Shown here: piece by piece, positions 4,945 through 11,428 of the stretch
Numbering within the stretch: position 1 is the stretch's first letter
Layout of the letters: the number at the start of each line of letters is the position of its first letter
From: a virus
DNA: 27,449 nucleotides
Direction: 5' to 3' (one strand)
Virus record (IMG/VR): IMGVR_UViG_3300044990_001107
Location: 1-27,449 of that record
Translations under genes and position numbers: made by a program
Notes under the pieces: generated by a model
Database searches by the model: none
Told to the model about the DNA's origin: nothing
What the model saw: only the letters and a program-made list of their open reading frames with translations

Positions 4945-5253
4945 ATGATAATCGACTTGAGTTTGACAAACAACGATTTGTACGCAGGCTGTGAGGTTGA
5001 GTTGGTAGCAGGCAGGTTTAACTTAACGACACCTGTGTCCCAGGCGATTGAAATCGTTGGAACCAATATCGGCAATATGATTGCAACGATCCCGCAGGCG
5101 GATCGGAATTCAGTAACCCTTACCGGGCCTATGGCCGTGTGGTCGTATCTGGTTGTTTTCCATGCCATCGTTCACGCTTTTTCAGAGGTGAAATACAACG
5201 ATGGACGCAGTGATGATGTTGTAATAGCGCGGCACGGAGCCGCACAGGTTTAG
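4945..5253 (+). CDS. Csx3/Crn3-like protein, possible cyclic-oligoadenylate ring nuclease
   Basis: The product is 102 residues from ATG 4945, with AAGGAG (4934-4939) upstream. An in-frame ATG at 4918 lacks a site. The C-terminal half reads VTLTGPMAVWSYL (57-69), then H77, D86-G-R88 and VVIARH97. This follows the Csx3 pattern of a hydrophobic strand, a G..PIW helix, H-x8-D-x-R and a VVV..H strand. H77, D86, R88 and H97 match by spacing the His, Asp, Arg and His that I recall for archaeal Csx3. The helix between W66 and H77 is one residue longer than I expect. Csx3/Crn3 degrades the type III CRISPR second messenger cA4. A phage copy would act as an anti-CRISPR, as the unrelated viral ring nuclease AcrIII-1 does. 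The gene is sure; the family call is remote homology by eye, and the role is inference. Confidence 0.6.
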   Translation: MIIDLSLTNNDLYAGCEVELVAGRFNLTTPVSQAIEIVGTNIGNMIATIPQADRNSVTLTGPMAVWSYLVVFHAIVHAFSEVKYNDGRSDDVVIARHGAAQV

Positions 5254-7269: not shown

Positions 7270-8979
7270 ATGGATTATACATTACGGCCATACCAAGAGG
7301 ATGTTTTAAAAGTCATTTGGGACGCTATACCGACTGATCAATTTATTCTGATTCAAGCGGCGACAGGTTCTGGAAAAACTATTTGCTTCTCTGAGTTGAT
7401 TAAACGTCTTCTGACACAATGGCCAAACATAAGGATCGGAATACTGGCGCATCGCAGAGAACTTATCACGCAGGCGCAAGACAAACTTCTTAAAGTGTGG
7501 CCGGAAGCGCCTATCGGTATTGCGTGCGCATCTATATCGGGTGATATTGATACAGATAAGCCTGTTGTGATTGGTAGCATACAAACGCTATCCAGACGTA
7601 CAGGGACAACCGTCCCATTTGATTTAGTGATAGTTGATGAAACACATAAAATACCTGCCATGAATATCAAGTCACAGTACAAATCATGGATTGAAACCAT
7701 GATCAAATATAATCCCAAGGTTAGAATAATAGGATTCTCTGCAACATGCTTCAGGCTTTCTCACGGATATATTTATGGGACTGCTTGTAAACCAGGCAAT
7801 ATTAATCTTTTTCCTGATCTACATTATCGAATATCAATCTCTGATCTTCAAAAAGATGGATATCTTTGCGGATACCGAGCTAAAACGATGGCGGATATTT
7901 CAAAAGACTTAGCCGGAGTACGGAAAACCAGAGATTATAATGTGGGTGATTTATCGGCAGTAATGAGCAAACAACAGCACGTAGGGTCTGCGGTGGCTGC
8001 ATTGAATGAACATGCCTCAGATCGAAAACACGTTATTGTTTTCGCTGTTACGATTGCTCACGCTGAAAAACTTCGTGAAGCGTTCGGAGAACAGGCAACC
8101 ATTATTCATTCAGAATTAAATGATGATGCCAGATACCAGGCACTTTCTGATTTTGAATCAGGCAAAATCAGGATAATCGTGAATGTCATGGTGCTTTCCG
8201 AAGGCTTCGATTCACCAGCAGTGGATTGCATTATCATGTGTCGTCCAACCATGTCCCCCGGACTTTTCATCCAAATGGCAGGCCGTGGCCTCCGTCCGCA
8301 TCCGGACAAAAAGGATGTGCTAATTTTGGACTTGGCTGAGAATTGCAAAACACATGGAGATCCGAATAACCCTCGTATAGAGATACCAGGGAGATCGAAA
8401 AAGAAGGAGATTGTGATTGAAGAAAAGAAAATTAAAACCTGTCCCAACTGTAGTGAAATTGTGGAACCACGCGCAACGGAATGTGAAATTTGCGGCTGGA
8501 CGTTTATTCAAGAAAGAAATGATCCAGTAGTGCTAACGGATTATCGGTTTGAAAAGGTGAAGTCAGCTTCGATGATTGGAGAAATCAGCGAAATAGAAAT
8601 GAGTAAGTATGTCAGCCGAGCAGGGGGGTTGATGGTTAAGGCTGTGATAACTGCTTGGGTGCCTGGTAGTATCAACCCCCACTTCATCAATTCGTTTCTA
8701 ATTTTTGGCGACGGGGGACACCCATTTGCCATTTCAAAAAATAAAGCTGTCTGGCGAAAACTGACTGGCTCTGAACCACCTTGTAGCGCACAGGAGGGCA
8801 TTGAGAGACAGGAAGAGTTCAAAACAGCATTAGGGACGCATGGCTGGATAGAAATTGAAGAAAATAATGGCTTCATGGGTGTGAAACGATGGAAAGTTGA
8901 TTCGCCACCGTCTGATTATTTAATACCAGTTCAAGAAGTTACAGAAGCACCATTGGATGAAGACCAAATACCATTCTGA
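7270..8979 (+). CDS. SF2 DEAD/DEAH-family DNA helicase with zinc ribbon
   Basis: This 569-residue protein has Walker A ATGSGKT (31-37), DETH (123-126), SAT (157-159) and motif VI QMAGRGLR (about 335-342), so both RecA-like lobes are intact. A CPNC...CEIC zinc ribbon follows (C391, C394, C405, C408), then a 150-residue C-terminal domain I do not recognise. The last residues are LDEDQIPF, an SSB-like acidic IPF tail. The family resembles phage and UvsW/RadD-type helicases used in branch processing or replication restart. ATG 7270 has AAGG five bases upstream; a TTG at 7255 in frame is less likely. It lies in the recombination block after the DUF669 gene. Confidence 0.92.
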   Translation: MDYTLRPYQEDVLKVIWDAIPTDQFILIQAATGSGKTICFSELIKRLLTQWPNIRIGILAHRRELITQAQDKLLKVWPEAPIGIACASISGDIDTDKPVVIGSIQTLSRRTGTTVPFDLVIVDETHKIPAMNIKSQYKSWIETMIKYNPKVRIIGFSATCFRLSHGYIYGTACKPGNINLFPDLHYRISISDLQKDGYLCGYRAKTMADISKDLAGVRKTRDYNVGDLSAVMSKQQHVGSAVAALNEHASDRKHVIVFAVTIAHAEKLREAFGEQATIIHSELNDDARYQALSDFESGKIRIIVNVMVLSEGFDSPAVDCIIMCRPTMSPGLFIQMAGRGLRPHPDKKDVLILDLAENCKTHGDPNNPRIEIPGRSKKKEIVIEEKKIKTCPNCSEIVEPRATECEICGWTFIQERNDPVVLTDYRFEKVKSASMIGEISEIEMSKYVSRAGGLMVKAVITAWVPGSINPHFINSFLIFGDGGHPFAISKNKAVWRKLTGSEPPCSAQEGIERQEEFKTALGTHGWIEIEENNGFMGVKRWKVDSPPSDYLIPVQEVTEAPLDEDQIPF

Positions 8980-10841: not shown

Positions 10842-11015
10842 ATGAAGGCAATTATAGAGATTGAACTGGAAATGGACGGTCACTATCAAAAATCAGACAA
10901 TCAGGAAATTATTGATCAAATACTAACATCAATGGATAGTGCATGGGTGATTGAGAATAACAGGTTGATAGTGATTGCAGATTCAATAACATGCGAACTA
11001 AAAGGGAAGCCATGA
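10842..11015 (+). CDS. Short early protein (57 aa), function unknown
   Basis: From ATG 10842 the product starts MKAIIEIELEMDGHYQ and has alternating hydrophobic residues typical of small alpha/beta proteins. ATG 10800 in the same frame would add 14 residues and overlap the previous gene; neither start has a strong ribosome binding site. The stop overlaps the DUF1566 gene as ATGA. No family is recognised. Confidence 0.6.
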   Translation: MKAIIEIELEMDGHYQKSDNQEIIDQILTSMDSAWVIENNRLIVIADSITCELKGKP

Positions 11016-11428
11016 TCGACAACGGCAACGGTACTGTAACCGACGAATCCACTGGGCTTATGTGGCAGCAAGAAACGGCAATGTTTATGTCTTGGAAGGA
11101 TGCTTTGTCATATTGCGAAAAACTACAACTCGCAGGCTATACCGACTGGAGACTACCAGTATCGGCTGAATTAAATAGTATCATTGATGATATTGACGAT
11201 GATGATATTGACGATAAACCGGCAATAAACCGACAATATTTTCCAAGAGCGGTTGCGTCATTTTATTGGTCTTCCACTACATCCGCCTCCAATACGAGCT
11301 ATGCGTGGGGTGTGTTTTTTGATACCGGGAATAATTATGAAACGGATAAAAATGGACATTGGTTTGTTCGTGCTGTCCGGAATGTTTATCGGACAGGACA
11401 TAAGAAAGAGCAATTAACCCTGTTTTAA
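11012..11428 (+). CDS. DUF1566 (Lcl C-terminal-like) domain protein
   Basis: The 138-residue protein is a single DUF1566 domain: DNGNGTVTDESTGLMWQQ (3-20), then SWKDALSYCEKL, GYTDWRLPVSAEL, FYWSSTTSAS and NGHWFVRAVR. DUF1566 is a C-type-lectin-like fold, common in surface proteins of Desulfobacterota and used as the variable domain in some diversity-generating retroelements. There is no signal peptide, and it lies in an early operon, which is odd for a binding domain. ATG 11012 overlaps the previous stop, with AGGGA upstream. The role is unknown. No reverse transcriptase or template repeat is seen in the window. Confidence 0.85.
   Translation: MIDNGNGTVTDESTGLMWQQETAMFMSWKDALSYCEKLQLAGYTDWRLPVSAELNSIIDDIDDDDIDDKPAINRQYFPRAVASFYWSSTTSASNTSYAWGVFFDTGNNYETDKNGHWFVRAVRNVYRTGHKKEQLTLF

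Follow-up and report, generated by a model that had tools for sequence, protein, structure and literature searches.

The window, that is the whole 27,449-nucleotide stretch of viral DNA analysed here, encodes a 102 aa protein (4945−5253, + strand, ATG start) that is a true relative of the Csx3/Crn3 proteins. Crn3 is the enzyme with which bacteria break down the type III CRISPR alarm molecule; on balance, the window protein is probably a Crn3-like cyclic-nucleotide ring nuclease used for early phage counter-defence, its most likely opponent being the cyclic oligoadenylate of type III Cas10. The ORF is a real gene. A ribosome-binding site (AAGGAG, 4934−4939, + strand), read from the sequence, lies 5 nt before the ATG, and the gene is under purifying selection, with dN/dS values of 0.05/0.33 against another phage contig (L001) and 0.16/1.47 against a related prophage (L013), giving ratios of approximately 0.11−0.18.

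The window phage is temperate, as it carries a tyrosine integrase (14523−15542, + strand; phrog_1, E 2e-62), and the Crn3-like gene lies in a same-strand run of early genes, the setting that the first-pass annotation had recognized. A repressor-type HTH phage regulator (2503−3006; phrog_3, E 5e-10) precedes the gene; a Sak4-like ssDNA annealing ATPase (6047−6745; phrog_124, E 6e-44), a DNA helicase (7255−8979; phrog_16, E 5e-93) and a Cas4-domain exonuclease of the phage recombination type (9837−10664; phrog_1990, E 7e-66) follow it, all on the + strand. A putative sigma-70-like promoter, TTGACA-18-TAATAT (3173−3202, + strand), stands at the head of the early operon as a consensus match only, and promoter-like sites are no commoner in the window than expected from shuffled sequence. 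The upstream neighbour is a phage protein of unknown function (4599−4928, + strand; phrog_1229, E 6e-29); the downstream neighbour (5412−5633, + strand), also of unknown function, is collinear in prophage L013. No cas interference genes were found in the window phage, in agreement with the earlier remark that none lies nearby; the accompanying suggestion that 3356−5633 forms an anti-defence block was not borne out, since the other ORFs there lack a convincing match to a defence or anti-defence model and gave weak chance matches only. Further along the window, the ORF at 10991−11428 is DUF1566-like by eye; its DNA resembles many short stretches at other places in host genome G001 and may belong to a family of repeats or of diversity targets.

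Kinship with Csx3 is decided by the relatives of the window protein, as the signal from the single sequence is weaker. The protein itself matches the PADLOC Csx3 model PDLC01040 (E=2.1e-6) and scores 12.7 bits against the NCBIfam Crn3 equivalog TIGR02579, under its curated cut-off of 55.4; a Pfam scan gave no family at E≤1, hence no DUF1874, SAVED or Crn3 match, and a PHROGs search of the protein returned nothing. A small custom Crn3 HMM ranks it top among all window ORFs at 15.5 bits, with one of 2000 shuffles close behind at 15.1 bits. AfCsx3 (AF_1864; PDB 6YUD/3WZG) was not found when PDB sequences were searched with the window protein by phmmer or profile; only L015, a homologue from the CPR, matched 6YUD, and weakly (E 1.2). 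The profile check proposed in the first-pass annotation came out in favour of homology, with the family profile matching that of canonical Crn3 at E=7.3e-6 by hhalign. The Csx3 model is also matched by 14/14 of the homologue-bearing GTDB genomes (E≤6e-4). In the reverse direction, the family profile searched against 389 genomes of the prophage host's class returned only the L013 prophage and seven small Csx3-like genes; two of the seven exceed the Pfam Cas_csx3 cut-off, each flanked by a CARF-like gene and a reverse transcriptase-like gene. The Desulfobacterota Csx3-like proteins of L061−L067 keep HxxH and are missing D69/R71 (YRSPVTGD); CARF-like and reverse transcriptase-like genes adjoin theirs where the flanks were read.

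The window protein is predicted to have the CARF-related Csx3 fold. AfCsx3 is the top Foldseek match (E about 0.03) for AlphaFold models with pLDDT of 90 and 92.5, and it aligns structurally with Z about 6 and an rmsd of 2.0−2.4 over 70−72 residues; this comparison with archaeal Csx3, also suggested at first pass, gave the expected match, but SAVED/CARF sensor chains tie with AfCsx3 in Z, so the fold match fails to separate Csx3 from its superfamily. A BFVD fold search gave no significant match. Alphavirus macro-domain matches were set aside as involving a larger domain, with an rmsd of 9−10 Å.

In AfCsx3, H60 and D69 are essential, R71 and H80 are important and H57 is conserved; cA4 also contacts S44, G45, R46 and I49 (PMC7371418). 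The motif read at first pass as Csx3-like (H77-x8-D86-x-R88 and D86-x10-H97, after G61-P62-x-x-V65-W66) is present in the window protein with all of its residues. H73 (codon 5161−5163, + strand) aligns with H57, D86-G87-R88 (5200−5208, + strand) correspond to D69-P70-R71, and H97 (5233−5235, + strand) corresponds to H80. In an alignment of the 21 intact family members, from which the frameshifted copy L026 was excluded, H73, H77, D86, G87 and H97 are invariant (21/21) and R88 is R in 19/21 and K in 2/21; these are sequence positions, with D86 and R88 assigned to the substrate face by alignment. Four of the five catalytic positions are thus conserved, and the fifth is shifted. The claimed motif layout stands in its spacing, which equals that of H60/D69/R71/H80; it does not hold column by column, as the gap-free alignment with the phage Crn3 L052, from the glycine through the D-x-R motif, puts the invariant H77 (5173−5175, + strand) one residue past the H60 column. 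That column is V/L/G in all members of the window clade (Val in the window protein), which makes the site HxxxH and not HxxH; the H77−D86 spacing equals H60−D69 only owing to a loop that is shorter by one residue in AfCsx3. Of the other cA4-contacting positions, T60, G61 and V65 fit S44, G45 and I49, and R46 is replaced by P62, a proline invariant in the family. The C-terminal strand that follows H80 in AfCsx3 is absent; the window protein ends around H97, and H97-G98 fall at the AfCsx3 end (80−81) in the structural alignment. Its N-terminal half is longer, with invariant G23-R24 and N41. Due to the differences at H60, R46 and the C-terminal strand, together with its separate clade, the protein is named Crn3-like and is not filed as Crn3.

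The hydrophobic H60 column, shared by all members, is also what would make cleavage very slow or absent if the protein were a sponge that binds a cyclic oligonucleotide between its dimers, a reading considered improbable. AfCsx3 H60A retains cA4 binding and loses cleavage (PMC7371418), and Csx15 is a CARF-family sponge with very slow ring nuclease activity (PMC13148439), both of which speak for a sponge; however, the invariant H73, H77, D86 and H97 and the near-invariant R88 exceed what binding appears to need. Paired histidines at i and i+4 of a helix commonly form a metal site, which argues further against this reading. As a ring nuclease, the favoured reading, the protein would be a small enzyme of the CARF superfamily whose clade is sister to Crn3/Csx3. 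It would be made early in infection and would open a cyclic oligonucleotide alarm, most likely the cyclic oligoadenylate produced by Cas10 of type III CRISPR. If it works as AfCsx3 does, the ring would be enclosed between two dimers, one of which may use D86 and R88 to hold and polarise the phosphodiester; the next would bring the Mn ion and pin the ribose through H73, H77 and H97. Such an enzyme would have an anti-CRISPR effect.

The window-clade family (n=22, from IMG/VR and GTDB scans) consists of the window phage, at least seven further phage contigs, one Desulfobacteraceae prophage (L013, collinear with the early region of the window) and 13 CPR chromosomes, so that phage homologues, which the first-pass annotation had proposed to look for, do exist. 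The distinct phage or virus contigs with members are L001/L006, L002 and L007−L012. The tree separates the window clade from canonical Crn3, with 100/100 support for each, and phage and CPR members are intermixed within the window clade. No window-clade homologues were found in INPHARED phages or PLSDB plasmids; four weak Streptomyces phage matches overlap capsid genes and were rejected as chance. One phage (L010) carries two tandem Csx3-like genes, at 7511−7843 and 7995−8288, of which the diverged copy has Arg where H73 would be, and His at the H60 column as well as at the residue after it.

A host that makes cyclic oligoadenylate is plausible for this phage group, as the MAG with prophage L013 encodes two III-A Cas10s (one seen with GGDD) and a Csx1-type CARF-HEPN protein. 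It also has a CRISPR array, the spacers of which do not match the window phage; the best match of a spacer from this host is 16 nt in L013 and is not significant.

The CPR homologues are chromosomal, mostly near a TrmB regulator. That gene copies sit in TrmB-linked CPR loci, and that the window phage is temperate, would suit a lysogen-expressed regulator that dampens host cyclic-nucleotide signals for the benefit of the host, or a CARF-fold phage protein of unrelated role; this is considered quite improbable, given that the gene lies in an early operon behind a repressor gene and that phages of widely differing kinds carry members. In the 13 CPR genomes with a homologue, neither a Cas10 over the cut-off nor a SMODS cyclase was found, negatives that are limited by MAG incompleteness; a weak Cas10-palm match in genome G012 turned out to be a GGDEF protein. 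The CPR homologue adjoins a short SAVED-TM gene in 3/3 of the genomes with such a gene, and in five genomes it adjoins a viperin-like radical SAM gene; the loci with the Csx3-like gene beside SAVED-TM and/or viperin-like (pVip) genes are L014:8659−10297, L015:4312−5946, L020:394−1568, L016:1690−2969, L017 and L021. This Csx3-like/SAVED-TM/pVip neighbourhood is a possible cyclic-nucleotide defence locus of an undescribed kind, and points to possible cyclic-nucleotide immunity where no Cas10 is found.

Homologues in CPR genomes without a detectable Cas10 indicate that the family is not confined to type III signalling, and their SAVED-TM and viperin-like neighbours call for caution on a purely anti-CRISPR role. 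The window protein could be a phosphodiesterase of the Crn3 fold that acts on another cyclic nucleotide, one that serves as messenger in a defence independent of CRISPR (a CBASS-like system or the CPR SAVED-TM locus), in which case HxxxH and the loss of R46 would mark a change of substrate. The CPR neighbourhoods, which lack Cas10 and SMODS cyclase, and the invariant proline at the cA4-contacting R46 position favour such an enzyme; it is nevertheless thought unlikely, if a serious alternative, as no cyclase turned up next to the CPR genes and the genome holding the related prophage has type III Cas10 and Csx1. A broader and rather doubtful proposal is that of a second Crn3-fold family, common to phages and CPR and bearing a rearranged HxxxH metal site, which degrades the messenger of an undescribed CRISPR-independent SAVED-TM/viperin-like immunity; the phage copies would counter that or a related system.

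Canonical Crn3 was also found in phages. NZ_CP133039 (L053), an 18-kb Pyramidobacter record labelled as a plasmid, is in reality a temperate phage element. It encodes an integrase, a LexA-type repressor, Rha and a holin; an annotated canonical crn3 lies at 11361−11645 of NZ_CP133039.1, shortly after a cro-like gene. Nine IMG/VR contigs (L057, L058, L059 and L079−L084) carry canonical Crn3, in several of which the gene adjoins terminase, lysis, ThyX or replication genes; the L083 contig is 272 kb. In L081/L082 the canonical Crn3 is fused behind a longer N-terminal region. None was found in INPHARED phages. A survey of 28,114 phage genomes lists AcrIII-1, Csx20 and Csx16 and does not list Crn3 (PMC12409355); the viral ring nucleases published so far comprise AcrIII-1, AcrIII-2 and a small number of Crn4/Csx16/Csx20 genes, and no report of a phage Crn3 was found in a literature search that left most subscription journals out of reach. 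Crn3-type proteins of two lineages, the canonical one and one whose metal site has changed, recur in phages known mainly from metagenomes; both lineages are a ready source of candidate new anti-CRISPRs against type III systems, and the divergent one could be used to test how a ring nuclease alters its site or its substrate.

Compared with known systems, the window protein shares with Crn3/Csx3 (TIGR02579, PF09620) a compact single domain of CARF-related fold, the G-x-x-x-[IV]-W helix start and equivalents of H57, D69, R71 and H80. It differs from AfCsx3 in the residues and strand described above, and its gene is phage-encoded in an early operon without cas genes, whereas Crn3/Csx3 is normally found at type III CRISPR loci. 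The canonical Crn3 of phages is likewise phage-borne, has the same core and in several cases lies in the early or replication region; however, it keeps HxxH, G-[RW]-[AG]-P, D-P-[RK] and the C-terminal strand, and those members placed in the tree fall outside the window clade (100/100). AcrIII-1/Crn2 (DUF1874) resembles it in the role proposed, in which a virus destroys a CRISPR second messenger, but has an unrelated fold (PMC7371418) and a domain that the window protein does not match. Further viral ring nucleases are AcrIII-2 (vSAVED) and Crn4b (PMC12751052, PMC12830947); AcrIII-2 is a 230-aa SAVED protein, its SAVED domain being close to CalpL, and Crn4 has a different fold from the window protein, which does not match Pfam SAVED, yet ties structurally with SAVED-fold chains.
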